Origin: Candidatus Coproplasma avistercoris
GTDB lineage: Bacteria; Bacillota; Clostridia; Christensenellales; Borkfalkiaceae
NCBI GenBank assembly: GCA_018711385.1
Contig: DVIK01000073.1
Span: 1 to 32,798, forward strand
Direction: 5' to 3'
DNA: 32,798 bases
Shown here: in pieces, positions 3,189 through 32,430 of the stretch
Numbering within the stretch: the first letter of the stretch is position 1
Layout: each line of letters starts with the position of its first letter
The notes under the pieces: generated by a model
What the model was told of the DNA's origin: nothing
What the model saw: the letters and a program-made list of their open reading frames with translations, nothing else
Databases searched by the model: none
Made by a program: the position numbers and the translations under genes

Positions 3189-3218
3189 CAGCTCTGCAAC
3201 AACACAATGCACAATATT

Positions 3219-3244
3219 CAGCCGCGGCGGCTCTGCCGCGGCTG
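3219..3244 (+). terminator. GC-rich hairpin between two lipoprotein genes
   Basis: A perfect 10-bp stem (3219-3228 with 3235-3244) lies 30 bases after the stop of the upstream gene. Only TTAT follows, so it is at best a weak or partial terminator. It may lower expression of the downstream genes or protect the upstream mRNA end. Confidence 0.55.
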
Positions 3245-3265
3245 TTATCGTATAAGGAGAATTTT

Positions 3266-8296: not shown

Positions 8297-8310
8297 AGTG
8301 CGCCATATTA

Positions 8311-8340
8311 AAGGCACGGAATGCATTCCGTGCCTTTTTG
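8311..8340 (+). terminator. Rho-independent terminator of the TetR gene
   Basis: The 22-base palindrome at 8313-8334 (arms GGCACGGAATG and its complement) is followed by T5. It separates the TetR gene from the two-component promoter at 8375. Confidence 0.9.
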
Positions 8341-8374
8341 CATGTAAAAAACGCCCCGAAAATCAAATTGCCAC

Positions 8375-8404
8375 TTGAAAAAATTTGTATCCCTGTGCTA
8401 TAAT
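8375..8404 (+). promoter_or_regulatory. Promoter of the YesN/YesM-type operon
   Basis: TTGAAA at 8375-8380, an 18-base spacer and a perfect TATAAT at 8399-8404 preceded by TGC (extended -10). Transcription would begin near 8411. Confidence 0.85.
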
Positions 8405-8425
8405 ATAAGCAAAGGTTTACGTATC

Positions 8426-11306: not shown

Positions 11307-12266
11307 TCAGCTGAACCGCTGCGTCGAGGCGGTCATCTTTGAAAGCAGGGCGTTCAGCCTGTCGTCCGTGGCGTCCGCCGCCCTGCGCGCGATAAAGTGC
11401 GTGGCGACTATCAGCGCCGCGCTGCATGCGACCGTAACGCCCGCTATAAGCGCCACGTCGCTGTACAGCGGCAACAGCGGCACGGCTATGCGCACGGTCG
11501 CGCCGTAAAAATTGCGCATGCTCGATACAACGAGCCTGCCGTTCACCACGGTGTCGGGCGCGGCGAGGATATATCCTGAGGCGTCCGCCGTGCCGGAGAA
11601 GAGGTACCCGTCGCCGAACGCTATCGTCACAAGGCTGCCTTTCAGCCGTCTGTCGCCTTCGAACGAGAAATATCCGTAGATGTTTTCGGGGAATATGTCG
11701 GAGAATATGCAGCCGATGACCTCGCCTTCATCGGAATATACCTTGCTGCAGCAGCTTATCATGCCGGCGCTCTCGTCATAGGGGGTGCCGTCATAGGCTT
11801 TTATTATGTCGGAATTGCGCAGCGAAACGTACTCCGAAGAGTCGGCGTCGTCAAAAAATTCGGCAATGTCGGCATGGCGGCGCAGCTGCTCCGTCGTCGG
11901 CGGATCGGTCAGTCCTGATGAGGTGTATATGCTCCCGTCCGTTCCGTATACGGTTATCCCGTTTATATACAGCGAATAGCTGCGCGCGGCGTCGAGAGCG
12001 GACGTGAGCGTGCCCGTGCCCGAACCTTCGAGCGCCTCTTTTATTTCGCGGTTGAGCGCAAGCGTATGCGTTGTGGACATTATGGAATCTATGTAAAGGC
12101 GGCCTGCCGAAATGCTGCGGTCGAGCTTGTCCTTTGCCATCGATACGCATATGTTGCCGAACATTCCCGAAAATACGGCAATGCTCGTCGCCGCGATCAG
12201 CACTATAAGGAGCACTGCTATCGTCATCAGCGTTCCGTATATCCTTTTTCTGGTCTTATTGAACAT
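11307..12266 (-). CDS. Two-helix membrane sensor-like protein lacking a kinase domain
   Basis: A protein of about 319 residues that looks like the front half of a YesM-type kinase. A basic start (MFNKTRKRIYG) leads into membrane helix 1 (about 12-32), then an extracellular domain of about 235 residues with Cache-like features (YSLYINGITVYGTDGSIYTS), then helix 2 (about 270-290). Only about 27 residues follow before the stop; there is no HisKA, ATPase, GGDEF or methyl-accepting domain. The extracellular part is not a copy of the neighbouring kinase sensor. It converges on the kinase gene and diverges from the solute-binding protein, so it may be an accessory sensor or the remnant of a second kinase. 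The ATG at 12266 is chosen because that at 12278 overlaps the -10 box. Confidence 0.75.
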   Translation of the reverse strand: MFNKTRKRIYGTLMTIAVLLIVLIAATSIAVFSGMFGNICVSMAKDKLDRSISAGRLYIDSIMSTTHTLALNREIKEALEGSGTGTLTSALDAARSYSLYINGITVYGTDGSIYTSSGLTDPPTTEQLRRHADIAEFFDDADSSEYVSLRNSDIIKAYDGTPYDESAGMISCCSKVYSDEGEVIGCIFSDIFPENIYGYFSFEGDRRLKGSLVTIAFGDGYLFSGTADASGYILAAPDTVVNGRLVVSSMRNFYGATVRIAVPLLPLYSDVALIAGVTVACSAALIVATHFIARRAADATDDRLNALLSKMTASTQRFS

Positions 12267-16700: not shown

Positions 16701-16908
16701 TGCCTTCCTCCTGTATCTGCTCTGCAAGCGCCGCACCCTCTGCACGTGCCGCGCTCGAGTTCGAGCCGTCTTTATAGCCTATGACAAACTTGTCGATCAG
16801 GCCGGAAAAAATCCCGACGGCGATGTTGACCGCAAGCACGACTACGAGTATGAACGCGCATACCGAAACGGCTACGATCCTGAAAGTCTTTTTGCTCATT
16901 TTACTCAT
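13798..16908 (-). CDS. Membrane-anchored glycoside hydrolase family 3, swapped domain order
   Basis: A 1036-residue enzyme, probably a beta-glucosidase or related exo-glycosidase acting outside the cell. A membrane helix near 10-36 and another near 995-1020 (before the basic stop KKK) bracket the extracellular part. The GH3 C-terminal domain comes first (about 50-430, ending at YPFGYGLSYTEF), then a fibronectin-like domain (about 460-560), then the TIM-barrel GH3 N-terminal domain. In the barrel, Lys828-His829 form the substrate-binding KH motif and Asp907 in GFRGAFLTDYSD is the expected nucleophile; Tyr follows where most GH3 have Trp. This order is known from Ruminococcus albus and Butyrivibrio beta-glucosidases. 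AAGGAGG at 16917-16923 sets the start at 16908; the longer frame to 16938 includes the SD. The C-terminus is Gln/Glu/Thr-rich (ETQQETQQ). Confidence 0.92.
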   Translation of the reverse strand: MSKMSKKTFRIVAVSVCAFILVVVLAVNIAVGIFSGLIDKFVIGYKDGSNSSAARAEGAALAEQIQEEGTVLVQNNDDVLPLSKTATPQVNVFGWAVTDWVISGSGSGQVKRGASTDFLEALTEYGIDYNTEITDMYERYRPNREFSINGSHAGSATEANPGGSGSLHSFNYEFSRLYEPSIDDTSYYTDSMLTNAEAYSDTAIVVIGRVSGESNDSPKVQYKGDPGTGKKTGMPAEDHIDKTRTYLEISTEEEALLEYVGETYENVIVLINSTNVMELGFMETIPGLDSCLVVATTGSAGAKAIPGILYGDINPSGKLADTYAYDLSTSSTYVDTGSGNDTTNFYTNSDGLYPTGEDHTNGSSTVKYQGVAYTDYRESVYMGYRWYETADTMGFWDDSYAENKWGIENGYDDVVQYPFGYGLSYTEFEWNITYLEIPNNSAISLDGEDNSVIKVGVTVTNTGNVPGQDVVELYYSAPYDQIEKSSVVLGAYGKTQQVLDPGESEYVELVMDVSDMCSYDYLSVKVPGGGYVLEAGTYTLTLRSDAHTVANDKVVRGDNNVHANATLTYTVSKDQFYLEDTVHNRFTGEDAGDGVAIDGNSDGTAQITYLSRANFKGTFPAKQAENRAMDERIMQYNLFTEDQAETWADEHSDALPVTFGDTSKSGVVYEDGKINELGMQLGMDYDDPAWDDLLDRISKSEMTGLVLNAYTETRAINSIGKPATVDFDGPNQAGSFAGTVSVEATGFSSIVLAQTWNVQLAYSMGLAFGTECISYGIQGWYGPGLNLHRSPFGGRNYEYYSEDTLISGSMAANVVKAAKNKGVFAYLKHLCLYETESGRDGMYTWLTEQALRELYLKPFEMAVTDGGSNAMMTSYGRIGAVWTGGSKTLLEDVVEGEWGFRGAFLTDYSDHTNFMDPDAMIRAGGDLFMRVGGGSFDYETSSDAFNNALRDSTKDVVYMWLNSLATNADYNAKIESGEIDDDVTIPTSPELNFRWYIPVLVVVDVLAVGGCGTWLFFAFRKKKAPAQQETQQETQQ

Positions 16909-16931
16909 TAAGTAAACCTCCTTATAATAGT

Positions 16932-16990
16932 TAAGCAAAACGTGATCGTGTCACTGCTTATATAATAGTGTAAAATTCTCCCACTGTCAA
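16932..16990 (-). promoter_or_regulatory. Promoter and possible operator of the minus-strand GH3 gene
   Basis: On the minus strand: perfect TTGACA (16990-16985), a 17-base spacer and TATTAT (16967-16962). Right after the -10 lies nested dyad symmetry: TGCTTA/TAAGCA (16955-16960 and 16932-16937) around TCAC/GTGA. Such a position would suit a repressor. Confidence 0.75.
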
Positions 16991-17123: not shown

Positions 17124-18428
17124 ATGAAAAATATCTTTATAAAGGCCGTCGCCGCCATCCTTGCGTGCGCGGCGGTAGCCGCGTGCGGCTGCGCGGACAA
17201 GGGCGGCACGGGAAATACCGGCAACACAGGCGGCACCGGCGGGGAAAAAGACCTGCCCATGGTCACGACGGACGGCGAAAAACTTGTGGACGAACATGGC
17301 GACGAGGTAATTCTGCGCGGCGTAAATGCCGGCGGACTGTTCGTCACCGAACACTGGATGACGGGATTTAATAAGAGCAATCCCAAGAACGACTACCTCT
17401 CGCTCAGCCGCACATTCATTTCAAGGTTCGGCGAAGAGGACACAAAGCAGCTGTGGGAGGAATACAGAAGCAACTGGTGGACGGAGGAGGACTTCGAAAA
17501 CTGTGCAGAGATGGGCATAAACGTCATCAGGCTGCCGTTTACCTACATGAACGTCGATTTTGCGGCGATAACCGACCTTGAAGACGCCGGGCAGAACTAT
17601 GATTTCTCCGCCCTCGACGAGTTCGTGGAGGCGGCGGCAGAGCACGGCATCTACACCATACTCGACCTGCACGGCGCCTACGGCTCGCAGAACGGGCAGG
17701 ACCACAGCGGCCAGATATTCGACACGGCCGAAGAGGTCACGTTCTATGAAAACGAGCAGCTCATAAGTCTTACGGTAAAGCTGTGGGGTGCGCTTGCTGA
17801 TCATTTCAGGACCAACTCCAACGTGATAGGCTACGACATTCTCAACGAGCCGGGCGAAAAGGCCGGGCTGACCGAAAAGAGGCACTGGGACTGCTTCGAC
17901 AGGATATACGACGCCATCCGCGCCACCGGCGACAGGCACATAGTAATATTCGAATCGTGCTGGGACGGCGCCAACCTGCCGCAGCCCTCGGAATACGGCT
18001 GGGAGACGTGCATCTATTCCTTCCATCACTATTCGGGCGACAATATAAGCTACGAACAGTTCTGCGAAAGCTGGGACAGCAAGATCGCCGAGATAGAATC
18101 GTGGGACTTCGGCGTGCCGCTGTATATGGGCGAATTTACCGCCTACGGCAAGGAGGCGCGTTGGTGGGACTACGCCCTCTCGCTGCTCAACGAACACGGC
18201 TGGCACTGGACCAGCTGGACTTACAAGGTGTGGGGCGGCATGGCGTGGGGAGTTGTCAACGTGCCTAACGACGGCGCGTATAAGGTCAATCCGGACGACG
18301 ACGGATACGAAGACATACTGGCAAAATTCGAACATCTTGATACTTCGGGCTGCGTGCGCTATACCTTCTCCGACGGGCGCACTCTCTTCGACATAATAAG
18401 TACTTATTCTGACGGCACAACGGCATAA
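17124..18428 (+). CDS. Glycoside hydrolase family 5 lipoprotein (endo- or exo-beta-glucanase)
   Basis: A 434-residue surface enzyme. The lipobox VAAC gives lipidated Cys21, followed by a short Gly/Thr/Asn linker (GTGNTGNTGGTGG) and a catalytic TIM barrel from about residue 45. GH5 landmarks are ILRGVNAGG, GINVIRLPF, ILDLHGAYGSQNG, the acid/base Glu242 in DILNEPGE, the HHY element near 301 and the nucleophile Glu337 in LYMGEFTA. The opening (LRGVNAGGLFVTEHWMT) recalls bacterial enzymes labelled endoglucanase or glucan 1,3-beta-glucosidase, so the substrate is a beta-glucan of uncertain linkage. GAGGTG precedes the ATG. The gene is divergent from a GH3 gene with which it would act: GH5 shortens the polymer and GH3 releases glucose. 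Confidence 0.93.
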   Translation: MKNIFIKAVAAILACAAVAACGCADKGGTGNTGNTGGTGGEKDLPMVTTDGEKLVDEHGDEVILRGVNAGGLFVTEHWMTGFNKSNPKNDYLSLSRTFISRFGEEDTKQLWEEYRSNWWTEEDFENCAEMGINVIRLPFTYMNVDFAAITDLEDAGQNYDFSALDEFVEAAAEHGIYTILDLHGAYGSQNGQDHSGQIFDTAEEVTFYENEQLISLTVKLWGALADHFRTNSNVIGYDILNEPGEKAGLTEKRHWDCFDRIYDAIRATGDRHIVIFESCWDGANLPQPSEYGWETCIYSFHHYSGDNISYEQFCESWDSKIAEIESWDFGVPLYMGEFTAYGKEARWWDYALSLLNEHGWHWTSWTYKVWGGMAWGVVNVPNDGAYKVNPDDDGYEDILAKFEHLDTSGCVRYTFSDGRTLFDIISTYSDGTTA

Positions 18429-18724: not shown

Positions 18725-18788
18725 CGCCGCCTTGTCGCAGCTTTATTATAATTCCCGGCGCGGGAAGGAGCGGCGGGGAGGGGAGTGT

Positions 18789-19502
18789 ATGATAAAAATA
18801 GCCATAATAGAGGACGACGCCGCTCAGGAGGCCGAGCTCCGCGCATATCTCACAAAATATTTTTCCGAACTCGGCCGACGGATTTCGATAACGTCCTATG
18901 CCGCCGCCGATGCTTTTCTGGCGGTATTTGAAAGGCATAAGTTCAATATGATCTTCATGGACATAGAAATGCCGGGGACAAACGGAATGGAGGCTTCCCG
19001 CCTTCTGCGGCGGAAGGATGAGGACGTGCTGCTCTTTTTTGTGACGAATCTTGCCCAATATGCCTTGGAAAGTTACGAAGTTTCCGCCTTCGACTATGTG
19101 GTGAAGCCGGTAAACTACTATAATCTTGCGCTGAAAATGAAGCGCGCCCTCCGCATGCTGCGCAACACCGAAGAGCACGCCATGGTCATAAACGCCGCCG
19201 ACGGGCAGCACGTTATACAGGTTTCCGATATACGATATGTTGAGGTGATGGGCCACAATGTAACTTACCATACCGTAAACGGCGATTATTTTGTGGGATA
19301 CGGGTCGCTCAAAGCGATACGCGCCGAGCTCGAGCCGCATGATTTTGTCCTTTGCGACCGTTCGTTCCTGGTAAACCTTAAATACGTTACGGGCGTAAAT
19401 AAGTCCGACCTGTATGTCGGCAACGACGTGCTCAAGATAGCCAAGTCGAGGCGTTCGGCATTCATGCTCGCGCTGACTAAATATTTTTCCTGCGAGGAGT
19501 GA
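18789..19502 (+). CDS. LytTR-family response regulator (AgrA/LytR-like)
   Basis: A 237-residue cytoplasmic regulator. The receiver domain (1-120) has Asp9/Asp10, the phosphate-accepting Asp58 in FMDIEMPGTNGME, Thr86 and Lys106 (VVKP). The C-terminal LytTR DNA-binding domain (about 135-233) contains DIRYVEVMGHNVTYHT and CDRSFLVNLKYV. LytTR proteins bind pairs of short direct repeats about 21 bp apart. GGGAGGGGAG lies just before the ATG at 18789; the longer frame from 18732 starts at a non-ATG codon and has no signal. The stop overlaps the SD and start region of the kinase gene, so the two are coupled. The nearest downstream target is the GH3/repeat-protein operon. Confidence 0.94.
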   Translation: MIKIAIIEDDAAQEAELRAYLTKYFSELGRRISITSYAAADAFLAVFERHKFNMIFMDIEMPGTNGMEASRLLRRKDEDVLLFFVTNLAQYALESYEVSAFDYVVKPVNYYNLALKMKRALRMLRNTEEHAMVINAADGQHVIQVSDIRYVEVMGHNVTYHTVNGDYFVGYGSLKAIRAELEPHDFVLCDRSFLVNLKYVTGVNKSDLYVGNDVLKIAKSRRSAFMLALTKYFSCEE

Positions 19503-19504
19503 GC

Positions 19505-20854
19505 ATGAGCTATCTTTTCTGGTATAAGGTACTGTTTATCACCGAGCTTATCGTGGCGGAAGGAATGCTTGCCTATGCGGTTCCGCGCAGGCCAAAGTTT
19601 GCGCTCAGGCTCATCGGCGCCCTGCTCATCTGCTACGCCGCAGCCTTCCTGTATCCGCTCTTCGGCATAAATTATACATGGTACGGCTCTTCGATAATGT
19701 TTTTCGTGCTGTTCTGCGTCACCGTTGCGGGGCTTTGGTTTTGCTTTCGGGTGCGTTTTTCGAACGTGCTGTTCTGCGCGGTCACGGCCTATGCCGTCCA
19801 GCACATTGCATATGAAATCTTTTCGTTCATAAACATATTGCTGTTTGATTCCGACGTGTTTACAGATGTCGCGTACGGCAGCGATACTTTTCTGCCAAGC
19901 GCCATAGCCGGTGTCGGGCCGGTGGAGTATATAATATACCTGTTTGTATATACCTGCATATACCTTGTTTCGTACACGGTGCTTCACAGGCGCACGGCGC
20001 TCGGAATGACGCTCAGGTTCAATAACCTGTCCATTATCGGGTTTACCTCGCTGGTGCTTCTAACCGATATAGTGCTGTCCGCCGTTTCCCAATACGCATT
20101 GCCTGCAAGCGACAGGAGCTGGCAGCTGCTCGTGTGCATATACAATATACTCTGTTGCATCATAATTTTTTATATACATATGAGCATGGTCAAAAAACAG
20201 AACGCCGAATACGAAAAGGAGGTCATCAGCGAACTCTTCCGCCAATATCAGAAGAACTACCGCGTGCAGGAGGAGAGCATTCAGCTCATAAACCGCAAAT
20301 GCCACGACTTCAAACACCGCATACGCATGTTTGCAAGCGGCCAGGGCATTGCGGATAAAGAGGCGGTGGAAGAGCTTTCCGATCTCATCTCCATATACGA
20401 TACGTCCATACGCACCGGCAACGATGCGCTCGACATAATCCTGACGGAAAAGAGCCTTCTGTGCCGCGAAAAGGGGATAACGCTTACCTGCCTGGCAGAC
20501 GGCAAGAGCATATCGTTCATGAAGAGCGGCGAGGTATATGCGCTGTTCGGCAACATTCTCGACAACGCCATCGAGGCCGTAATGAATGTGGACGACCGCG
20601 ACAAGCGCTGCATAAACCTGCACGTCACGCGCAAAAGCGGAATAATCGCCATAAGTTCGGATAACTATTTTCAGGGCGAACTTGCTTTCACTGCGGACGG
20701 GCTTCCTAAAACCACCAAGGCGGCGGACGGCAACCACGGCTTCGGAATGAAGAGCATACGCGCGCTTGCCGAATCTTACGGCGGAATGCTGTATGTCACC
20801 GCAGACGACCATATATTCAGGATGAGCATAGTCATTCCGGACAATTTCAGCTAA
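19505..20854 (+). CDS. GHKL-type membrane sensor histidine kinase (AgrC-like)
   Basis: A 449-residue partner of the LytTR regulator. The first 220 residues hold about six membrane helices with very short outer loops, so it senses either a membrane-permeating or peptide-like signal or something presented at the membrane, not a soluble sugar through a large outer domain. A coiled segment follows, then the phosphorylation motif CHDFKH with His267, and a GHKL ATPase domain with N box FGNILDNAIEAV and glycine box NHGFGMKSIRALAESYGG. GAGGAG at 19494-19499 is five bases before the ATG at 19505; the GTG at 19499 overlaps that SD and is rejected. No pheromone precursor or AgrB-like protease is visible nearby. 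Confidence 0.92.
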   Translation: MSYLFWYKVLFITELIVAEGMLAYAVPRRPKFALRLIGALLICYAAAFLYPLFGINYTWYGSSIMFFVLFCVTVAGLWFCFRVRFSNVLFCAVTAYAVQHIAYEIFSFINILLFDSDVFTDVAYGSDTFLPSAIAGVGPVEYIIYLFVYTCIYLVSYTVLHRRTALGMTLRFNNLSIIGFTSLVLLTDIVLSAVSQYALPASDRSWQLLVCIYNILCCIIIFYIHMSMVKKQNAEYEKEVISELFRQYQKNYRVQEESIQLINRKCHDFKHRIRMFASGQGIADKEAVEELSDLISIYDTSIRTGNDALDIILTEKSLLCREKGITLTCLADGKSISFMKSGEVYALFGNILDNAIEAVMNVDDRDKRCINLHVTRKSGIIAISSDNYFQGELAFTADGLPKTTKAADGNHGFGMKSIRALAESYGGMLYVTADDHIFRMSIVIPDNFS

Positions 20855-20866
20855 TGGAACATTTTC

Positions 20867-20899
20867 AACGGGCCGGCCGCAAGCCGGCCCGTTTTTTTT
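20867..20899 (+). terminator. Rho-independent terminator of the LytTR operon
   Basis: Arms of 11 bp (20867-20877 and 20883-20893) with a T8 run. It ends the kinase transcript and separates it from the GH3 promoter. Confidence 0.94.
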
Positions 20900-20930: not shown

Positions 20931-20994
20931 TCGTGCAGTTTTTCGTTCGTTTCGTGCAAACGGTATTGTAATTATGAAAGTTTCGTGCTATATT
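20931..20994 (+). promoter_or_regulatory. Promoter of the GH3/repeat-protein operon with direct repeats
   Basis: TTGTAA at 20966-20971, a 17-base spacer and TATATT at 20989-20994 preceded by TGC. TCGTGC occurs three times: 20931-20936, 20952-20957 and 20983-20988. The first two are exactly 21 bp apart and lie just upstream of the -35, the arrangement expected for a LytTR activator; the third touches the -10. Confidence 0.55.
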
Positions 20995-21065: not shown

Positions 21066-24000
21066 ATGGCAAAGAAAGTGAAAGCCGGAAAGGTTAAACG
21101 CGGACTTGTTCCGCTGATCGTAAGCTGCGTGATTATAGCAATTCTTATAGTTGCGCTCTCAATAGGCAATACGATTGCCTTCAAGTACGCCACCGTTATA
21201 GACAGCGTGCTCTCGCAGCCCATAGTGGACGAGGAGGAGCGCGAGGCCGCCACTGCTTCCGGCCAGGAGCTGGCGCAGCGCATCGTTGAAGAGGGCGCGA
21301 TCCTGCTGAAAAACGATAACGACACCCTGCCGCTAAACACTGCGGAAAACGGCAGCGTCAACGTGTTCGGCTGGCATTCGATAGACTGGCTGTACGGCAC
21401 GGGCGGCGGCAACGTATCTTCGGGCGGCGTTCTGCCCGAGGATGACGACATAAGCAAGAATGTCGACCTCTACAAGGCGCTCAACGCATACGGCATCCGC
21501 TATAACAAGGACTTGTACGATATGTACTATAAGTACAAAAAGCCCTATCAGCTCGCGCGCGGATGGAAGGTGGACGAAATTCAGAACGCTATGCCGCTTG
21601 TGGAACCCTCCATAAGCGATAAGTCCTGGTACTCGGACAGCCTGCTGAACGGCGCCAAGGAATTTTCCGATACCGCCATCGTGGTGATTTCCCGCCTTGT
21701 GGGCGAGGGCGCGGACTGCTCCAAAGACCAGCAGCAAAAGGACGGCCCCAACGGAAAGTATTACGACAGGGAGAGGCACTTCCTTGAAATTTCCTCCGAG
21801 GAAGAGGAGCTGCTTACATATGTCGGCGCCAACTTTGAAAACGTAATAGTGCTCATAAACACCTGCAACCAGTTCGAGCTCGGTTTCCTCGATACCATAG
21901 AGGGGCTCGACAGCTGCCTGTATGTGGGTTATACGGGCACGCGCGCGGCAACCGCGCTTCCCGGCATTCTTTACGGTGAAGTTTCGCCCTCGGGCCATAC
22001 CCCCGACATATTCGCCTACGATCTGTTCACCAACCCCTCGGCAATATGGGGCACAAAGACGTATGCCGAAGGCGGCAGCTACCTCGACAAGGTCGCCGGC
22101 ATATATGTAGGCTACAAGTGGTACGAAACCGCCGACCACGAGGGCGTCTGGACTGCCGAAAACGGTTATCCCGGCGGCTACGACAGCGTCGTTCAGTTTC
22201 CCTTCGGCTTCGGCCTTTCCTATACGACTTTCGACTGGACTGTGGACGACATAAAGATCGACGGCGAGTCTGCCGAAGAGGGCGCTCAGTTAAAGGCGGA
22301 CAGCAAGGTGGAATTCACCGTAACGGTGACCAACACGGGCGAAAGGGCGGGGCGCGACGTCGTTGAGATCTACAATACGGCGCCCTATACGAAAGGGCAG
22401 ATAGAAAAATCGTTTGTAAACCTCGTAGGCTACGGTAAGACCAACGGAATTGAGCCGGACGCAAGCGAGACGATAACCGTTACCGTGGATATGTACGACT
22501 GCGCCTCTTACGACTGCTACGACCTCAACAAAAACGGCAACGCCGGCTACGAGCTGGATGCGGGCGACTATCTGTTCAAACTGCAGACGGACAGCCACAA
22601 CGTAAAGCAGGTTTCTTACGGCGGCGAAACGCGCGACGGCAGCTTTACGTTCAACATAGCCGAAACGCTGCTCATAAAGAACGATCCCGTGACGGGCGAA
22701 GAGGTAAAGAACCTGTTTACCGGCGAAGATGCGACAGACACCGTGCCCATAGACGGCATAACGGAAAATTTCACGCCGGAAATACCGTGGATATCGCGCG
22801 CGGATATGCCCACCCCTGCAACCGTGCAGGAACAGTTCAGCGCGGCGGGCAGGGCCAGAAACCCCGAACTTGCAGGCTTCGATAACATGGATATGACCCG
22901 CTGGAAGGAGTGGGACGCGCAGACGGGGCTTGACGCCTTCGGCAACGAAATAGATACTTCCCCCGTAACCTGGGGTGCGGACAGCGGGCTGCTGCTTGCG
23001 GATAGCAATGGCAATATAACCGAACTCGGGCAGGCGCTCGGCGCCGACTTCGACGATCCCCGCTGGGAAGAGGTGCTCGACCAGGTGACTTTTGACGAGG
23101 CGCTCGGCGTCATGAACCAGTACTACGGCTCCGCGGCGATAGCTTCCGTGGGCAAACCCCGCCTTACCGACCTGGACGGCCCCACGCAGATAAAGGGCTA
23201 CAACACCGCGCCGCGCGGCACGGGGTATCCCTCTATGGTAATAATAGCTGCAACGTGGGATCCCCGCATTGCATATGAATTCGGCAAATCCTACGGCGAC
23301 GATATGTCCGCGCTCGGCATAAGCGGCGTATGGGGATTTGCAAACGACCAGCACGTAAACCCGTTCTTCGGCCGCAACAACGAATCTCCTTCGGAAGATC
23401 CCTTCCTTGCGGGCACGACAATGTCAAACGCAGTGCGCGGCCTCAATACCCGCGGCAAGTATTCGTTTATAAAGCACTTTGCAACTTATGAATCGAGCGT
23501 TGAAAATACGTGGATGAGCGAACAGACTTTGCGCGAAACGGTGCTCAAAGCTCACCGCAAGGCGTTTGTGGAAGGCGGTTCGCTGGGCGCTATGACGAGC
23601 TACCAGAGCGTGGGCGCAGAAAAGTCCTCCAATTCAGAGGCGCTTTTGACGGGCGTTCTGCGCGGCGAATGGGGCTTCCGCGGTGCGATTACTTCCGACG
23701 CAATGGGCGGTGCGCACCAGTGGATGGAGGCGCTTATCCGCTGCGGCGGCAACTACGGGATGAACATAGAGCTGGGCGCGATGGGAATAAATTATTCCAC
23801 AACAGCTACAACAAACAGAATGCAGCACAGGATGCGCGATTCCGTTCACGAAATTTTGTATCAGTGGCTGCATGCGGACTATAACGCCCGTCAGTATGCC
23901 GCCAATCCCGACGCGGACGATAAATACAGCGCGTCGTCCTCGATAAATTCGTGGGTATGGTGGAGGCCGCTCATATACACCATAGATGTCGTCATGGGTT

Positions 24001-24104
24001 GCGTATTTGCCTTCTGGCTGTTCTGCGTGGCGGGCAATTATATAGCCGGCCTTAAGGCAGACGACAAACTGAAAGTCCCGACTGAAGGGGAGGAGGTTTC
24101 ATAA
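21066..24104 (+). CDS. Membrane-anchored glycoside hydrolase family 3, swapped domain order
   Basis: A 1012-residue enzyme, same architecture as the minus-strand GH3 but well diverged. Membrane helices lie near 14-38 and 960-990. The GH3 C-terminal domain comes first (about 70-390, ending FPFGFGLSYTTF), then a fibronectin-like domain (about 405-535), then the catalytic barrel (about 640-905). Lys803-His804 form the KH motif and Asp878 in GFRGAITSDAMGG is the expected nucleophile; Ala follows where Trp is usual, which may alter the subsite. Probable exo-acting beta-glycosidase. GGAGGA is 13 bases before the ATG, a long spacing. The stop TAA shares its last base with the next ATG (TAATG), so the next protein is made in step with the enzyme. 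Confidence 0.92.
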   Translation: MAKKVKAGKVKRGLVPLIVSCVIIAILIVALSIGNTIAFKYATVIDSVLSQPIVDEEEREAATASGQELAQRIVEEGAILLKNDNDTLPLNTAENGSVNVFGWHSIDWLYGTGGGNVSSGGVLPEDDDISKNVDLYKALNAYGIRYNKDLYDMYYKYKKPYQLARGWKVDEIQNAMPLVEPSISDKSWYSDSLLNGAKEFSDTAIVVISRLVGEGADCSKDQQQKDGPNGKYYDRERHFLEISSEEEELLTYVGANFENVIVLINTCNQFELGFLDTIEGLDSCLYVGYTGTRAATALPGILYGEVSPSGHTPDIFAYDLFTNPSAIWGTKTYAEGGSYLDKVAGIYVGYKWYETADHEGVWTAENGYPGGYDSVVQFPFGFGLSYTTFDWTVDDIKIDGESAEEGAQLKADSKVEFTVTVTNTGERAGRDVVEIYNTAPYTKGQIEKSFVNLVGYGKTNGIEPDASETITVTVDMYDCASYDCYDLNKNGNAGYELDAGDYLFKLQTDSHNVKQVSYGGETRDGSFTFNIAETLLIKNDPVTGEEVKNLFTGEDATDTVPIDGITENFTPEIPWISRADMPTPATVQEQFSAAGRARNPELAGFDNMDMTRWKEWDAQTGLDAFGNEIDTSPVTWGADSGLLLADSNGNITELGQALGADFDDPRWEEVLDQVTFDEALGVMNQYYGSAAIASVGKPRLTDLDGPTQIKGYNTAPRGTGYPSMVIIAATWDPRIAYEFGKSYGDDMSALGISGVWGFANDQHVNPFFGRNNESPSEDPFLAGTTMSNAVRGLNTRGKYSFIKHFATYESSVENTWMSEQTLRETVLKAHRKAFVEGGSLGAMTSYQSVGAEKSSNSEALLTGVLRGEWGFRGAITSDAMGGAHQWMEALIRCGGNYGMNIELGAMGINYSTTATTNRMQHRMRDSVHEILYQWLHADYNARQYAANPDADDKYSASSSINSWVWWRPLIYTIDVVMGCVFAFWLFCVAGNYIAGLKADDKLKVPTEGEEVS

Positions 24105-27100
24105 TGAATAATCCCGGAACGGAAAAGCCCGGATTCAGCTGGAAAAGGTTAAGGCTTGCGGTAGGCGTATTCCTGGCGGTGGTCGCGGCCGTTACGGCCG
24201 CGGCGCTGATCGCCGGCTCATATAAGGAGTGGAAAGATTATTACGACGAAGCGCTGGCGGAAAAGGAATACAACAAGTATATCCAAAGCCTGCCTCTTGA
24301 GCTCGTGTCGATAAGCGCCGCGCTTGCCGACGACGTCGTGTATTACGATAACGATACCGCCGAACCCGAAGTTTACGACTTCGTCGTTATGGCGAACTTT
24401 ACGGAAAAGGGCAGGGATTTTTCCCGCGAACTTTCGGCCACGGACTTCACCATACAGGTGCCCGATAATTTTGCAAGGGACGGCGGCACGATAGTGTTCA
24501 CCTATGTATGGACGCCGGAAGCCACCGGCGACGAGCCGCCCGTACCCGTAGAAAAGCAGACGGAGCTGAACATAACGCTCGTTCAGCCGGACGAAACGGT
24601 GTTCAAACTCATCGAGGCGCCCACCTACACGCAGGAGGGCTATGCCGAAAATATCAACGGCGAAAGGAAGATCCTGCCCGTTCTGAACGACGTGAATTAC
24701 GACTATACCGAATCCGATTCGGACGGCATTGCAAGGTTCCGCTATGAAGAGCTCAACATAACAATAAAAAAGCCTTTAATGTCGGAAATTTCTTTTAAGC
24801 TTACAAGTTCTTCGCGTACGGAGGAATACAACAACGTAAACTATAATTTCCTGGCGAATATCCCCGACGCAACACTTGCGTTCGATGAAGAGGCGCAGTC
24901 ATTCGTGATATCTGCGGAGGCGGGCAGAACGGTAACGCTCAACATGCTCAAAGCCGAAAACGGCAGCATAACCATTGCGGGAGAAGGCTCCGTATCCGTA
25001 GCCACCACGCTCACCGCCGCCAACCTTACGGTAAAATCCGGCGCAACGCTGCTCGTGAACACCGAAGGCGTTGGCATAAGTGCCGATTCGCTCAACTTCG
25101 AACGCGGCTCCACCGTAAACGTAAGCACATCGGGCGACGGCATAAGCCTCTACGGCTCCGCAGAGCTGTACGGCACGCTCAATGTAACTTACGCTCCCGG
25201 CACAAAGGCAAATACGGGCATATGCGCGCAGACCGAGGACGTAGTTATAGAAATAGGTTTCACGGCGGATATAACAATAAAAGATTACGAATGGGGCATA
25301 GCCAAGTTCAGCGGCGATGGCGACGGCAAGGTTCTGTTCCCTTTCGGTTATTCGGGCAGAAAGACGGGCACTCTTGAAGACGGCGAAACCCCCATAGTAT
25401 ATTATTCGGTTACCGACGGCTCGGGCGAACGCAACATCCTTTCCATGATAAACGTTACCACTACATGGTTGAACAGGCTTACAGAAGCAACTATAAGCCC
25501 GGACAGCGACTATACCGTTACAATGCAGCCTACGCTTGAAAGTACGGGACTTGCCAAGGCGGAGGGCAAGGATGATATAATCCTTCCCGCGCTAAACGGA
25601 ATGGACTATGCCTTCAGCGACGACGGAGAAACGACTACTTTCGTCCATTACGAAACGGGCATCAGCTTCGCGGTATCCGTTCCCGGCGAGCGCCTGACGC
25701 TGGGCGGCAATACCTATAACAGTCTCACCGCGCAGATGTACCTTTCTTCGGAAGATATGCAGGTAACCTATGCGGACGGTGCGTTCACGCTCACGGTGGC
25801 CGCCGGCAAAACGGTGGAATATCAGTCCGGCATTACCGCCACAAAAGATCTGATAATTGCGGGCAAAGGCGAGCTTTTGCTCAACGGACAGCTCAACCTG
25901 TCCGACGGCATGCTGACTGTAAAATCGGGCGCAGACCTTACGGTTATAAACGGCGACTTGCCTGTATTTGTTTCCGCATGCTGCTTCGAAGAAGGTTCAA
26001 CCGTAAACGTAACCACGACCTCCGGCGACGGGATTGAACTCAACGTAAACGGCAAAGACCGCGTATCCGTATTCGGTGGCACGCTGAACATTACAAGGGA
26101 GGCGTATGGCAATACCACGGGCATAGTAATACGCAACACCGGCATAGAAATCACCCTGAGTTCCGCCAGCCGCATTACGGTAACGAACTTCCAGTATCTG
26201 ATCGGCAGATGGAATATCGAAGGCGCAAACAACAAGCTGAATTTGCCCTTCGGCACGCAGGCAACCGCTGCGGGCGAACTTGCAGAGGGTGAAATATGCA
26301 GTTGGTATATAGTGGACGGCGACGGCAGGCAAAAGATACTTGTTGTCAACAATAGCGACGGCACCGCAACGGGCGGAGGTGTAATTTATTGCGTAGATGT
26401 CGTAATCGCACAGATGGAAAGCGGATATGCCGTAACGAAGGCGCCCACGCTCACCGAAACGGGCGAAGCCACGTTGGACGGGCACGGAACCATCGTGCTC
26501 CCCGCACTCAACAGAAAGGAATATTCCTTTGCGGGCGACGACGGAACAAAGGTTACCTTCACGCACTACGCAACGGGGCTTACTTTCGATGTGGCCGTAG
26601 AAGGCGAACGTCTGGCTTTGGGCGGCGTAACGTACAACAGCCTCACGGCGCAAATGTATCTTTCGGGCGACATTGCCGCATCGTATAAAGACGGCGTGTA
26701 CACGCTTACCGTTGCCAAGGGTAAAACTGCGGAATACCAGTCCGGGCTTACGGCGGCGGACATTGTAATCGCGGGTGAAGGCACGCTTTCATTGCACGGC
26801 CGGATCACCGCAAGCGGCTCGCTCACCGTAAAGTCGGGCGCAAGCCTCACGATCGAAGGCGGCACGGTAATATCTGCGGGCGAAATTGTGTTCGAGGCAG
26901 GTTCCTATGTGTACTGCTCCATAACGGAGGACGGCATAATCATAACGGGCGACGCCAAACTGCTCGGCACGCTGTATGTGGCGGCTGCGCCGAACAGCGG
27001 AAAAACCGGCCTTGTGTCGTCGGGCACAAATCATATAGATATAGAGCTCGGCTATTCCAGCGATCTCACGTTTGAAAACCTTTCATTCGCAATGGGAATG

Positions 27101-28153
27101 TTTGCCAATCAGAGCAGAGGAACCACTATATTCTATCCCTACGGTTTTTCCAAGGTAAGCGATTCGCCGGCAGGTACGTCTTACATTACCGTAACCGACG
27201 GCTCGGGGACGCGCAATATTTTAACGGTCATAAGTGTTGAAAACGGTTTAAGTTTTTGCGCATTTACCGAAAAAACCAAAGATTACGGGGGCTTTACCGT
27301 TACAACGCAGCCCGGACTCGGCACAACGGGCGTTGCAGAGTCGGCGGACGGCGCAAAGATAACGCTCCCCGCACTCAACCGCACGGACTATTCCTACGCG
27401 GAAAGCGGCAATGAAGTAACCTTCACCCATTACGAAACGGGCCTTGCCTTTACCGTAACGGTAGATGAAAGCCTGCCCAAAATCACAATAAACGGCACGG
27501 CTTATAACTGGCTTGTAGCCTCTGTATATCTTTCAACGGAAGATATGCGGATAAGTTTTGCGGACGGAGTGTACACGATTACCGTTGCTGCGGACAAGAC
27601 GGCGGAATTCACATCGCTTTCGGCCGACAGCCTTGTAATCGCGGGCGAAGGCACGGTTGCGTCAGGCGGCACGCTCAACGCAAAGGTAATGCTCACGGTA
27701 AAGTCGGGCGCAAGCCTTACCGTAAGCGGCGTTGCCACTGCGTTAGACGTGGGCGGAATACTGTTTGAAGAAGGTTCGTACGTGCACCTGCTCACCAACT
27801 CCGCAAGCGCAAACAGCGTTTACCTGCGCGGTAACGGAAAGTTGCTCGGTACGTTGATTATCAAAAACGAGGAAAACAAAGGCACGACAGCTTTTGAAGT
27901 GCTTGGTGACAGTTTAGAAGTCGAACTGTCTGAAACCAGCCGTATAGTGTTTGAAAACTTTACTTTCGGTTTCGGCAGCTTCTCCAATGCTGTTCATCCC
28001 AGGCTTGTTAAACCTGCAACGACAACGAGCGCGACTTCGTCAGAGCTTCAAGAGGGCGAAACGGCTGTGTGGTTTATGCTCGACGGCAACGGTAACAGGC
28101 AAAAACTGATAATATGGGTAAATTGTAGTTCGCAGAACTGCAATATGCAGTAA
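24104..28153 (+). CDS. Giant membrane-anchored protein with four ~300-residue repeats
   Basis: A 1349-residue protein of unknown function. A basic start (SWKRLRLAV) and one membrane helix (about 17-38) anchor a large extracellular part. After a first unique region, four repeats begin near residues 173, 475, 780 and 1069. Each has a front half with a motif like ILPALN-x-x-(D/E)Y and FTHYETGL, and a back half of short beta strands with LTVKSGASLTV and EGSYV-like turns, suggestive of a beta-solenoid. The back half recalls the acidic-sugar-binding beta-helix protein Cthe_2159 of Clostridium thermocellum, but this is a weak resemblance. No catalytic motif. Translational coupling with the GH3 gene argues that it partners that enzyme, perhaps by binding its substrate. 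Confidence 0.85.
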   Translation: MNNPGTEKPGFSWKRLRLAVGVFLAVVAAVTAAALIAGSYKEWKDYYDEALAEKEYNKYIQSLPLELVSISAALADDVVYYDNDTAEPEVYDFVVMANFTEKGRDFSRELSATDFTIQVPDNFARDGGTIVFTYVWTPEATGDEPPVPVEKQTELNITLVQPDETVFKLIEAPTYTQEGYAENINGERKILPVLNDVNYDYTESDSDGIARFRYEELNITIKKPLMSEISFKLTSSSRTEEYNNVNYNFLANIPDATLAFDEEAQSFVISAEAGRTVTLNMLKAENGSITIAGEGSVSVATTLTAANLTVKSGATLLVNTEGVGISADSLNFERGSTVNVSTSGDGISLYGSAELYGTLNVTYAPGTKANTGICAQTEDVVIEIGFTADITIKDYEWGIAKFSGDGDGKVLFPFGYSGRKTGTLEDGETPIVYYSVTDGSGERNILSMINVTTTWLNRLTEATISPDSDYTVTMQPTLESTGLAKAEGKDDIILPALNGMDYAFSDDGETTTFVHYETGISFAVSVPGERLTLGGNTYNSLTAQMYLSSEDMQVTYADGAFTLTVAAGKTVEYQSGITATKDLIIAGKGELLLNGQLNLSDGMLTVKSGADLTVINGDLPVFVSACCFEEGSTVNVTTTSGDGIELNVNGKDRVSVFGGTLNITREAYGNTTGIVIRNTGIEITLSSASRITVTNFQYLIGRWNIEGANNKLNLPFGTQATAAGELAEGEICSWYIVDGDGRQKILVVNNSDGTATGGGVIYCVDVVIAQMESGYAVTKAPTLTETGEATLDGHGTIVLPALNRKEYSFAGDDGTKVTFTHYATGLTFDVAVEGERLALGGVTYNSLTAQMYLSGDIAASYKDGVYTLTVAKGKTAEYQSGLTAADIVIAGEGTLSLHGRITASGSLTVKSGASLTIEGGTVISAGEIVFEAGSYVYCSITEDGIIITGDAKLLGTLYVAAAPNSGKTGLVSSGTNHIDIELGYSSDLTFENLSFAMGMFANQSRGTTIFYPYGFSKVSDSPAGTSYITVTDGSGTRNILTVISVENGLSFCAFTEKTKDYGGFTVTTQPGLGTTGVAESADGAKITLPALNRTDYSYAESGNEVTFTHYETGLAFTVTVDESLPKITINGTAYNWLVASVYLSTEDMRISFADGVYTITVAADKTAEFTSLSADSLVIAGEGTVASGGTLNAKVMLTVKSGASLTVSGVATALDVGGILFEEGSYVHLLTNSASANSVYLRGNGKLLGTLIIKNEENKGTTAFEVLGDSLEVELSETSRIVFENFTFGFGSFSNAVHPRLVKPATTTSATSSELQEGETAVWFMLDGNGNRQKLIIWVNCSSQNCNMQ
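24618..28100 (+). repeat. Four tandem intragenic repeats of about 0.9 kb
   Basis: Repeat units start near 24618, 25525, 26440 and 27307, recognised by the recurring ILPALN, FTHYETGL and LTVKSGA protein motifs. DNA copies are diverged but still alignable by eye between units 2 and 3 (around 25720 and 26638). Confidence 0.8.
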
Positions 28154-28230: not shown

Positions 28231-28265
28231 AGCCCGCCGCGGAAAAATCCGCGGCGGGCTTCTTT
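28231..28265. terminator. Bidirectional terminator between the repeat protein and the small gene pair
   Basis: A perfect 13-bp stem (28231-28243 with 28248-28260, loop AAAA). TCTTT follows on the plus side; on the minus strand TTTTGCGCTTGAGCTTTT follows. It can end both converging transcripts. Confidence 0.85.
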
Positions 28266-29317: not shown

Positions 29318-29359
29318 TGTCAGCCATTACACTTTATGGTGTATGTGGCTGGCATTTTT
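29318..29359 (+). terminator. Terminator-like hairpin in the leader of the large lipoprotein gene
   Basis: CAGCCA (29321-29326) pairs with TGGCTG (29346-29351), with an inner ACAC/GTGT pairing (29329-29332 with 29339-29342), and T6 follows at 29355-29360. It lies about 40 bases before the start codon at 29398. Either it ends a short upstream transcript or it is a leader attenuator. No known riboswitch core was recognised upstream. Confidence 0.55.
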
Positions 29360-29397
29360 TGTTAGCTGCGGACAAATTTTTATATCGGAGGAAAATA

Positions 29398-32300
29398 ATG
29401 AAGAAAAGAAACGGTATACTTGCCTCATTTGCCGTGATTTCGCTCACGCTCGCTGTTGCGGCGGTGGCGGGTTGCGCAAAGCCCACTTACGAAATTTCGG
29501 TAACGGGCGGCAAGGCAAGTGTAACTGAAGCGGCAGAGGGAACGGAAGTGACTCTTACCCCTGACGCGGCGGCTGTAGGACAGGAATTTGTCGGCTGGAC
29601 GGTAAACGGCGAATCCATTGAAGGGAACACTTTCGAAATGCCCGCCGAAGACGTAACGGTAGAGGCCGTTTTCGAAGCTATCGATTACACTCTCACCATA
29701 ACCGGCGGTTCTGCGATGATAGGCGACGAGGTGGTTACCACCGCAAATTATCAGGACGAAGTAACGCTCGGCGTAGACCTTGAAGCTGTCCCTGCGGATA
29801 AGGGCTTCTCGCATTGGAATGTTACGGCAGGCGATGTCGATATCACCGATGGTTCTTTCACGATGCCCGCCGAAAACGTTGCGATAGAGGCGGTATATGC
29901 CCAGCTTTACGACGTAACTGTTGAAGGCGGCACTGCTGACGTACAGTCTGCAATAGCCGGCACAACGATAACGCTGACGGCGCAGCCCCCCAAGGGCATG
30001 GAGCTCACGCAGTGGCTGGTCGACGGCGAACCCATCGAAGGCAGCACGTTCGTGCTTCCCGAAAAGGACGTAGAAGTAGAGGCCGAGTTCGATTGGATAG
30101 ATTACAATATTACCGTTACCGGCGGTTCGGCAACGATAGGCGGCGAAGCTGCGGCAACCGGCAATTACGAACAGGAAGTTACGCTTACGGTCGATGAAGA
30201 GGCCATTCCCGAAAAGAAGGGCTTCGATTATTGGACGGTGAACGGCGAAAAGATAGAGGGCAACACCTTTAAGATGCCCGATGCCGATGTTGTCGTAGAA
30301 GCTGTTTATTTTAATTATTACAGTGTGAACATCACCGACGGAAAGACTGATAAAGAGCTCTATAAGGAAGGCGAAACTGTAACGCTTACCGCCGACACAA
30401 AAGAAAATTACACCTTTTGGTATTGGGAAGTGAACGGCGTAAGGACAGAAGGAAACACTTTCCTGTCGCCTGCGTACGATTCCACTGTAAAAGCTGTATA
30501 TGTTCAGACGACGCGCCAGCTTGCCGCGCCCGATAACAGCACGAACCTGCTGCTGTATAGGAAGAACAATACTATCGAGATCGATCGTGCTGAGACTTCG
30601 ATGTTTACCGAAGGCCTCACTGATCATATACGCATAGATATATATGATTCTGTTGAGGGCAATGAAAAACTTGGTAGCCTCAATCTGTATGTGACAGGTT
30701 TTGGTTCTGCCACCGAAACCAAGCTCACCACGTCCGACGGAACGCAGAGCCTTACCGTGCTCGGCAATGCCGGAAACCTCTATCTTATGGGCGACGGCTT
30801 TACGAATTTCTTTGAACTGCTTGCCGCCGAGATAGGCGAAAATTACAGCGACACTACGTCTTATTATATCAGCCTTACCGCAGTCGCGATAACCGATACC
30901 GTAAAGGACGAAGCCAGCGGGTTTGATATAACTTATAAGGACAGCGAGGCATCCGTGATAGGCACCGCCGCACTCGTAAGGTTCGGCCCTGTTACCGTTA
31001 CCGTTATCGGCGGCTATGCAGACGGCGAGGAGAGCAAGACCGTGCACGAGGGCGAGTCCGTAACGCTCACCACCACTGTGCCGGAAAATAAGGTGTTCAC
31101 TGGTTGGTATGAAGTGAATGCCGATGGCACGCTTGCCGAAACTCCCGTTTCCACCAGCCTTTCCTGCGAATATGTGGTCGATGCAGATGCTACCGTCCAG
31201 GCGGTGTTTGTAGATAAGGATCAGGCTCAGATGATACAGCTCGTCGTTCCCGATAACAGCCAGGGCGCGTTGCTCAGGCGTAACGGCACTGGCGGCGCTA
31301 TCGAGGCGAACAGGGCGACCGATTCTACCGGAGCAAAAGTTTCCATGTTTGGCACCGGCGTGGATCATGCGCTCGTCTATGTTTACACCTCTGCCGATGG
31401 CGGCGAATCCGTAGGTCAGTTCAAGATGTTCGTCAACTCCGCAGGCCGTGTGATAGCTCAGTCACTCGACGGCAGGTTCAGCGTTGAAATGGGTTCCGCC
31501 GGCGACAGCTACACTACCGATTACGACGGCTTCTTTGCGGTTCTTGCAAAGGCAGTCGGCAACAGCTACAGCGATGCCACTACATATTACTTTGCTGTCC
31601 AGCTCAAGGGCGCGGTTGGTTCCGTTTATGAAGACAGCGAACTTTCTGCAATAGGCCCCAACGGTTTTGCCCGCGACCTGAATGCGTCCAAGGATACTTA
31701 CACCGTTACGATAACCGGCGGTAAGGCGGAAGGCGACCTTACTGCGGTAGAAGGCGTAAATCACGGCGCTATCGTTGTGATCACCGCAGACGAAGCGGAG
31801 GTCGGCAAGGTATTTGCATACTGGGCACTCTACGAAAATAATGAAGAAGACAGCATACTGACAGTGGAAAAAGAGCTCGTTTACAGAGTGACCGGCAATG
31901 CTGATATCCGCGCCGTATTCCTCAATGAAGGCGAAAAGCTGCAGGTTGCCACGCCGAACAACTCCAACAACGAAATGATCAAATTCAGCGCCGGCAATCC
32001 AGGCGAAAGCATGAGCACGATAGAATTTGACCGCGGACAGGCGGGCGGAACGGCATTCCAAAACGGCGTAAGCGAAGTCGTTTACTACATCTATACCTCC
32101 AACGAGGAAGACGCCGAACCCGTAGCTCAGTTCAGCATCAGGTACGACGGCACCAACTTTAAGCTCGTCGACAGCGAAGGAACGGTGTTCGCGCACAACA
32201 TCATAGGCGGCGCAGGCAACCTTTATCTTAGCGGCAGTAACGGTTCGGAGGCCGTAGCGTTCATAAAGGCGGCATACGAAAAGGATGCAGGCGTAGCCTG

Positions 32301-32430
32301 GGACGATACGGGCGCAACTTCGTATTACTTCGCGTGCCAGGCGATATCCGGCATGCCCGAACTTTTCGAGGACAGCGAAATAAGCAGTAAGGGCACAGCT
32401 TGGGGTTCGCTTATCAATCCCGCGGCATAA
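29398..32430 (+). CDS. Large surface lipoprotein of InlB-like B-repeats and a repeated unknown module
   Basis: A 1010-residue lipoprotein; the lipobox VAGC places the lipid on Cys26. Five B-repeats in a row (starting near residues 29, 97, 174, 236 and 309; motif TGG-K/S-A...GFxxWxVNGExIEGNTFxMP) resemble the divergent InlB B-repeat family used as spacers on Gram-positive surfaces. Then an unrecognised module of about 150 residues appears three times (near 375, 615 and 850), with B-repeats near 534 and 768 between the copies. Each module opens with P(D/N)NS and closes with T(S/T)YYx... and DSExSxxG. GGAGG at 29387-29391 sets the start; the frame from 29359 only adds leader sequence. Probably binds a surface or dietary polymer. 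It ends in Asn-Pro-Ala-Ala. Confidence 0.87.
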   Translation: MKKRNGILASFAVISLTLAVAAVAGCAKPTYEISVTGGKASVTEAAEGTEVTLTPDAAAVGQEFVGWTVNGESIEGNTFEMPAEDVTVEAVFEAIDYTLTITGGSAMIGDEVVTTANYQDEVTLGVDLEAVPADKGFSHWNVTAGDVDITDGSFTMPAENVAIEAVYAQLYDVTVEGGTADVQSAIAGTTITLTAQPPKGMELTQWLVDGEPIEGSTFVLPEKDVEVEAEFDWIDYNITVTGGSATIGGEAAATGNYEQEVTLTVDEEAIPEKKGFDYWTVNGEKIEGNTFKMPDADVVVEAVYFNYYSVNITDGKTDKELYKEGETVTLTADTKENYTFWYWEVNGVRTEGNTFLSPAYDSTVKAVYVQTTRQLAAPDNSTNLLLYRKNNTIEIDRAETSMFTEGLTDHIRIDIYDSVEGNEKLGSLNLYVTGFGSATETKLTTSDGTQSLTVLGNAGNLYLMGDGFTNFFELLAAEIGENYSDTTSYYISLTAVAITDTVKDEASGFDITYKDSEASVIGTAALVRFGPVTVTVIGGYADGEESKTVHEGESVTLTTTVPENKVFTGWYEVNADGTLAETPVSTSLSCEYVVDADATVQAVFVDKDQAQMIQLVVPDNSQGALLRRNGTGGAIEANRATDSTGAKVSMFGTGVDHALVYVYTSADGGESVGQFKMFVNSAGRVIAQSLDGRFSVEMGSAGDSYTTDYDGFFAVLAKAVGNSYSDATTYYFAVQLKGAVGSVYEDSELSAIGPNGFARDLNASKDTYTVTITGGKAEGDLTAVEGVNHGAIVVITADEAEVGKVFAYWALYENNEEDSILTVEKELVYRVTGNADIRAVFLNEGEKLQVATPNNSNNEMIKFSAGNPGESMSTIEFDRGQAGGTAFQNGVSEVVYYIYTSNEEDAEPVAQFSIRYDGTNFKLVDSEGTVFAHNIIGGAGNLYLSGSNGSEAVAFIKAAYEKDAGVAWDDTGATSYYFACQAISGMPELFEDSEISSKGTAWGSLINPAA

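Follow-up and report, generated by a model that had tools for sequence, protein, structure and literature searches.

A co-inherited membrane partner of a permuted, membrane-anchored GH3 enzyme in Candidatus Coproplasma avistercoris

This study concerns two adjoining genes of Candidatus Coproplasma avistercoris, which lie in a window (the whole stretch of DNA analysed) comprising 32,798 nucleotides of contig DVIK01000073.1, positions 1-32,798, forward strand. The first gene encodes a predicted glycosidase of family GH3, permuted and with two membrane segments (P0002), and the second a 1349-residue protein built largely of repeats (P0001). The N-terminal module (N-module) of P0001 belongs to a family whose members lie in GH3 operons, and GH3 enzymes and these partners are paired and inherited together. 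The evidence suggests that P0001 is a dedicated helper of the GH3, and this help probably consists of catching substrate. We lean slightly towards the view that the two proteins form a two-subunit membrane glycosidase, in which the partner supplies both a docking base, which is conserved, and an arm for holding glycan, which can be exchanged.

Results

The N-module is linked to GH3 genes

The whole P0001 sequence was used to search its own genome, then a sample of 201 genomes from the same family. The own genome holds one other match, covering residues 21-173 only, in a 1071-residue frame on another contig; this frame, too, overlaps at its start with the final bases of a permuted GH3 gene. Three more genomes of the family sample match the N-terminal part of P0001 (best residues 15-160), in all three cases behind a permuted GH3. 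Since the relatives match P0001 in its N-terminal part only, the conserved part of the protein is the N-module and not the repeats. A locus search with P0001 as the query returned no related loci, and phage records gave no match.

Searches with an N-module profile (A1, later A4) produced 7 strong matches (E < 1e-10) in 350 genomes of the family; a second family of this order, of which 74 genomes were searched, yielded 20. Across the order (248 genomes sampled), strong matches were restricted to the own genome and two genomes of the second family. All strong matches from the two family-wide searches (27/27) are located in a GH3 operon. In 24 of these cases the N-module protein is the next gene and starts at most 170 bases from the GH3 stop on the same strand, one lies 318 bases behind the GH3 frame (L059), and the remaining two are separated from the GH3 by one gene of the operon (L051 and L086/L065). 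The N-module family was first found from the partner sequence alone, and 7/27 members are rows of profile A4. P0001 has the features proposed for the family, namely an N-terminal membrane helix, a stalk and a beta module, directly after a permuted GH3.

Weak matches (E 1e-3 to 1e-5) numbered 2 in the family search, 10 in the order-wide search and 2 in the second-family search, and they resemble general Ig-type domains. Gene contexts were fetched for two of these 14 (L030 and L031), and neither had a GH3 nearby.

GH3 enzymes with a partner group together

Alignment A5 of GH3 sequences served to scan one genome per species, which yielded 350 relatives; the best 80 of these were retained and, together with the N-module loci, gave 95 distinct GH3 rows. 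Among these 95 rows, 25 are followed by an N-module protein, 14 by another transmembrane protein, 51 by neither, and 5 by a contig edge. A tree was computed from 82 of the 95 rows, 13 being left out by length and score. The tree contains one group of 34 rows with an SH-aLRT support of 100, which we call a clade; as the root was drawn at the midpoint, the term denotes one side of a branch. Its members are 25 GH3s with an N-module protein, 6 Bacilli GH3s that have a short membrane protein instead, 2 interrupted by contig ends, and 1 without a partner (L074). Of the other 48 rows, 42 have no partner, 2 lie at contig ends, and in 4 the GH3 precedes a different membrane protein. On the tree, the N-module label requires 3 changes. 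The second GH3 of the window (13798-16938), which has no partner of this kind, is placed outside the clade among the partner-less rows. The first-pass annotation had taken the repeat protein for a dedicated neighbour of domain-swapped GH3 enzymes, and at the level of the N-module this is borne out by the 27/27 linkage and by the grouping of the partnered enzymes.

That the short Bacilli proteins are N-module proteins was considered and is not supported by sequence comparison, which gave a best E of 2e-3 for one of them, and they are kept here as a second form of partner. Four GH3s outside the clade (L051, L116, L111 and L113) are followed by transmembrane proteins that were not counted in the partner family; those of L111 and L113 look unrelated. 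The L074 GH3 (7929-11603) has 1224 residues and a long tail beyond its last membrane segment, and the next gene encodes a LytTR regulator.

GH3 and partner genes are closely spaced. In the window the TAA stop of P0002 (24102-24104) and the ATG of P0001 (24104) have one base in common (TAATG), as the first-pass annotation had stated. Over 31 GH3-partner pairs (25 N-module and 6 Bacilli), the partner starts -14 to +58 bases from the GH3 stop; genes overlap in 16/31, and 25/31 starts fall between -14 and +4 bases. Start codons were chosen in favour of ATG with a Shine-Dalgarno sequence, and agreement in this respect is thereby inflated. The two proteins may be made in fixed proportion. Distances between GH3s and distances between their N-modules are correlated (r 0.86 over 25 pairs), and 0/2000 permutations gave a correlation as high. 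This correlation shows that the two genes have been inherited jointly.

The GH3 enzyme P0002

Pfam places GH3_C at residues 79-386 of P0002, an Fn3-like domain at 432-484 and GH3_N at 709-880, from which it follows that the domain order is permuted. The Fn3-like match is under the curated cut-off in P0002 and over it in the second GH3 of the window. Hydropathy predicts two membrane segments, at residues 8-45 and 968-996, and the protein ends 16 residues after the second of these; no extra C-terminal CBM6/35-like domain was found there (CBM, carbohydrate-binding module).

Permuted GH3 enzymes are already known. GlyA1 (PDB 5K6L) is a permuted GH3 from the rumen with an extra C-terminal CBM6/35-like domain (PMC5104943). 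P0002 has the GlyA1 type of domain order, and an acid/base Glu and a nucleophile Asp that align with those of GlyA1. Both residues are conserved in 34/34 clade members. The position after the nucleophile is Tyr in 23/34 members and Ala in P0002 and two others, and for this reason the specificity of P0002 may differ. Trp963, just ahead of the second membrane segment, is Trp in 31/34 clade members, and among the other 61 rows Trp is not one of the six commonest letters at this position.

The best PDB match to P0002 is the permuted GH3 of Paenibacillus barengoltzii (5WUG, E 4.6e-52), and BrGH3A is likewise permuted. BrGH3A has neither the extra C-terminal domain nor a signal peptide (PMC11233000). 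The CBM6/35-like domain at the C-terminus, which GlyA1 and 5WUG have and BrGH3A does not, is not a requirement of the family. Unlike the pair in the window, 5WUG and BrGH3A are single proteins. GlyA1 also differs from P0002 in its accessory part: a membrane segment closes the P0002 chain, and a second membrane protein provides the accessory part. The GlyA1 domain is fused to the enzyme, whereas a CBM6/35-like domain of the same kind is carried on a separate protein in the relatives of P0001. The word 'transmembrane' is missing from the main text on GlyA1 (PMC5104943).

The own genome (assembly 1.38 Mb, 85% complete) has 14 GH3 open frames by our count, and judged from these predicted frames it shows a strong GH3 expansion. 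The two best-scoring of the 14 are the two that have a partner.

Outer parts of the partner proteins

Beyond the N-module, the 27 partners are highly variable in length and composition. Pfam matched nine families among them, including Big_3 in 11 partners, CBM-like (PF14683) in 3 and Kelch_6 in 2. One of the 27 matches Exo_endo_phos (PF03372, E 3.3e-12), and the partner at L087 (11128-19072) exceeds 2600 residues and is truncated where its stretch ends.

One relative, the L075 partner, was modelled (471 residues, 19 aligned rows, pLDDT 88.6, pTM 0.64). The model has a helix followed by beta domains at residues 31-123, 130-209, 219-300 and 311-452. At E <=0.001 there were 94 Foldseek matches in the PDB, among which multidomain proteins (7nit) rank first by E. 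Single-domain matches to the last domain include CBM35 2w1w (E 3e-5, TM-score by target 0.63), CBM6 2cdo (0.60) and CBM36 7ay3 (0.67). The CBM6/35-like region is spanned by all 18 relatives in alignment A9, the rows of which we chose. The six short Bacilli partners (part of alignment A8) also align with it (hhalign, 84% probability), and consist of little besides a membrane helix, a stalk and one beta domain. By eye, many partners continue with propeller-like repeats, for which Pfam support is weak. In P0001 four repeats take the place of the CBM-like and propeller-like parts of its relatives, and resemblance to CBM6, CBM35 or CBM36 is absent.

The repeats of P0001

P0001 has a single hydropathy segment, at residues 15-41, and with the two segments of P0002 this agrees with the earlier proposal that both proteins are membrane-anchored. 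The proposal of four repeats of about 300 residues also stands. Motifs of the ILPALN type occur at residues 191, 494, 799 and 1088 and LTVKSGA at 308, 604, 907 and 1197, and a profile built from the repeats so anchored matches P0001 at 163-467, 468-768, 771-1058 and 1060-1346. The remaining three repeats are 30, 42 and 40% identical to repeat 2.

As the first-pass annotation had stated, the repeats have no known name. Neither a Pfam domain above cut-off nor an NCBIfam entry matches P0001, and PDB sequences include no relative at E up to 1. We considered a cellulosome scaffold and a SusD-type binding protein. Neither identity was supported, no cohesin, dockerin or SusD domain being matched by P0001 in Pfam to E 1 or found among the nine families matched by the 27 partners. 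A CBM6 or CBM35 beta-sandwich was sought in P0001 without a match in Pfam or for the repeat 2 model, and comparison of the half-repeat profile with the partner profile gave 3.8%.

The model of repeat 2 (four aligned rows, pLDDT 77, pTM 0.79) is all beta, with a poor tail beyond about residue 230, in line with the beta-rich character first proposed. Foldseek found no PDB fold match to it at E 0.001; the best was fusolisin (E 0.034), and the beta-helix entries 7jvi and 3pet appear at only E 0.83 and 0.87. No known beta-helix family of Pfam matches the repeat to E 1. That the second half of the repeat is a beta-helix is consequently a guess. Cthe_2159-type binding proteins are an example of the right-handed beta-helix.

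Full-length repeats were found in 1/350 family genomes (the own genome), in 0/74 genomes of the family of G470, where the sole hit was a partial one in G597 (E 8.2e-8), and among the order-wide 248 in no genome but the own. The partner of the closest GH3 (L050/L071, 76% identity) ends at a contig edge after 112 residues, and repeats are possible there. G165 and G195 contribute five partial matches (E 1.6e-4 to 8.8e-4), which cover the first ~60 positions of the repeat. The proteins concerned carry 'PTL..GGKA..IPAL' repeats, and by eye the first part of the P0001 repeat may derive from that common motif.

A beta-helix lipoprotein of genome G597 (L160, 5736-8231, minus strand) matches the half-repeat over its full width (repeat positions 72-239, E 8.2e-8), a match missed with default HMMER filters and seen with filters off. 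This lipoprotein resembles P0001 in these positions and in adjoining a GH3. It differs in having one such unit, no N-module and the reversed gene order, the lipoprotein gene ending 12 bases 5' of the GH3 gene in the stretch 2358-8231 of L160 (minus strand). Profile A10, which includes the G597 sequence, identified six further half-repeat loci at E < 1e-5. GH3 is the next gene in 2/7 half-repeat loci (at 12 and 58 bases) and lies ~4 kb off in 1/7, and the stretches fetched for the other 4/7 contain no GH3. With GH3 adjoining only 2/7, we take the half-repeat for a surface module of general use whose tie to GH3 is loose at best. The expectation that the repeat family always follows a GH3 did not hold, full-length repeats being seen in P0001 only.

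Discussion

Under the two-subunit reading, the gene pair would give rise to a membrane-anchored exo-glycosidase. Membrane segments at its two ends would fix the GH3, with both catalytic residues kept, at the outer face, and the one N-terminal segment would fix the partner; the charges flanking these segments suggest that both proteins face outward. The stalk and first beta module of the partner would serve as the docking base beside the enzyme. What remains of the partner would be the arm, concentrating or orienting a glycan, or a glycan-rich surface, for the enzyme, and made of CBM6/35-like and further modules in relatives and of four tandem repeats in P0001. Gene pairing, close spacing and joint inheritance are shown by the data; that GH3 and partner touch, and that the partner holds glycan, is our inference.

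Several observations weigh against this. P0001 itself lacks the CBM-like region, and for its repeats no match to a known fold was obtained at E 0.001. In the clade, the GH3 of L074 stands without a partner. Among the other tree rows, the 42/48 without a partner include many permuted GH3s with both membrane segments, so the partner is dispensable for fold or anchoring. The correlated distances show shared inheritance and do not prove contact. Finally, when the CBM6/35-like domain of GlyA1 was tested on xylan, cellulose and barley glucan, it bound to none of the three, and its authors did not regard it as an obvious binding domain (PMC5104943). The substrate-holding role put forward in the first-pass annotation is thus upheld in part, by the region modelled in L075 and spanned in the 18 relatives of A9, and is not upheld by P0001 or by the binding results on GlyA1.

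A more general proposal, which we regard as tentative and somewhat doubtful, is that the conserved base acts as a docking adaptor shared by a whole clade of GH3s, all permuted and doubly anchored, and that swapped arms re-aim the enzyme at new glycans. The swapped arms would be CBM6/35-like, propeller-like or beta-helix-like repeats. If true, such a modular two-subunit enzyme would correspond to GlyA1 with its fused accessory domain, but in split and membrane-held form.

Because the GlyA1 domain showed no binding to these polysaccharides, a spacing or a tuning role is kept as a rival. In the first, the partner would be a spacer or wall anchor that fixes the GH3 at a given height in the cell wall, or onto a surface, without holding substrate. 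Long ectodomains of stacked beta domains, the great variability of the outer part among the 27 partners, and the lack of a recognised binding domain in P0001 are what a spacer would predict. Still, we think it unlikely, as the six short Bacilli partners consist of little more than a helix, a stalk and one beta domain, and the recurring domain resembles CBM6/35.

It appears to us rather improbable that the partner is a structural or allosteric subunit whose task is to stabilise or tune the enzyme, the role that GlyA1 assigns to its fused C-terminal domain. Removal of that domain lowered activity 2- to 18.4-fold (PMC5104943), the conserved part of the partner adjoins the membrane where the enzyme ends, and Trp963 is kept in the clade in the manner described above. 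This Trp pattern may reflect shared ancestry only, and tuning leaves the large, exchangeable outer parts unexplained. A shared operon that reflects only a common food source, the two proteins never touching, is very unlikely: co-expression alone could account for the tight spacing, and half-repeat relatives do occur in loci without GH3 (4/7), but 27/27 linkage over two families, group-wise inheritance and the limitation to 2/14 GH3 frames of the genome exceed the needs of a shared regulon.

Enzymes with fused carbohydrate-binding modules are well known. The GH3-linked membrane partner has no Pfam or NCBIfam name, and searches of one open-access full-text library found no description of it. New for GH3 would be an accessory glycan-handling module in trans, on a co-inherited membrane protein with an exchangeable outer part. 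Were the complex real, it would offer a ready way to test how Clostridia and Bacilli of the gut that have not been cultured take up food at the cell surface, and a route to annotating large secreted proteins that family libraries leave unnamed.

Other features of the window

The features of the gene pair and its surroundings are listed in Table 1. A terminator scan of the sequence gave 10 sites against 11.3 expected, so terminator-like sites are not enriched here. With hairpins before the GH3 and after the partner, the two genes look like a transcription unit of their own. The two-component genes were considered as a component of the system and rejected as not specific: among loci with at least 2.5 kb of upstream sequence, a response regulator and kinase occur in 9/25 clade loci and 7/39 others.

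Table 1. Positions of features in the window (ORF, open reading frame).
Feature	Position	Strand	Basis
Permuted, membrane-anchored GH3 (P0002), 1012 residues: (alpha/beta)6, FnIII-like, (alpha/beta)8 barrel	21066-24104	+	ORF, Pfam, hydropathy
Glu214 codon, aligns with GlyA1 acid/base Glu143	21705-21707	+	alignment, residue counted by hand; GlyA1 numbering from the literature
Asp878 codon, aligns with GlyA1 nucleophile Asp709	23697-23699	+	alignment; GlyA1 numbering from the literature
C-terminal membrane segment of GH3, residues 968-996; Trp963, Trp965 and Trp966 just before	23967-24053	+	hydropathy, alignment
Shine-Dalgarno AGGAGG (24091-24096), 7 bases 5' of P0001 ATG, with stop/start overlap TAATG	24091-24106	+	sequence
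Partner protein P0001, 1349 residues	24104-28153	+	ORF; ATG at 24104
N-terminal module: membrane helix, stalk, beta module; conserved, GH3-linked part	24140-24622	+	profile searches
Repeat 1	24590-25504	+	profile
Repeat 2 (modelled)	25505-26410	+	profile, model
Repeat 3	26414-27277	+	profile
Repeat 4	27281-28141	+	profile
Terminator-like hairpin (11 pairs) and T run, between upstream LytTR/GHKL two-component genes and GH3	20867-20893	+	hairpin scan
Weak promoter-like site 5' of GH3, 9/12	20966-20994	+	consensus match only
G+C-rich hairpin 3' of partner gene, possible terminator	28232-28259	+	by eye; absent from scan list
LytTR response regulator, upstream neighbour, not pair-specific	18732-19502	+	
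GHKL sensor kinase, upstream neighbour, not pair-specific	19499-20854	+	
Second permuted GH3, without partner; control	13798-16938	-	Pfam, contexts, tree

A GH5 gene (cellulase family, Pfam E 3.8e-27) lies at 17124-18428 (plus strand), just 5' of the two-component genes. The lipoprotein encoded at 3131-5281 (plus strand) shares 41% identity, over 687 columns, with a protein at L127 (15507-17540, minus strand), which adjoins a GH3 fragment. By eye, similar proteins follow GH3 frames in L107, L120 and L149, and this lipoprotein type is possibly a second unnamed GH3-linked family. In the protein encoded at 5301-7523 (plus strand), CxxC motifs follow the pattern 'PTC..G...C..CG...PLGH', and some stretches are CBM-like, with a weak match to CBM_35 (E 0.051). 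The frame at 29359-32430 (plus strand) encodes 1023 residues, in which InlB B-repeats (PF18998, E 3.6e-35) occupy six stretches.

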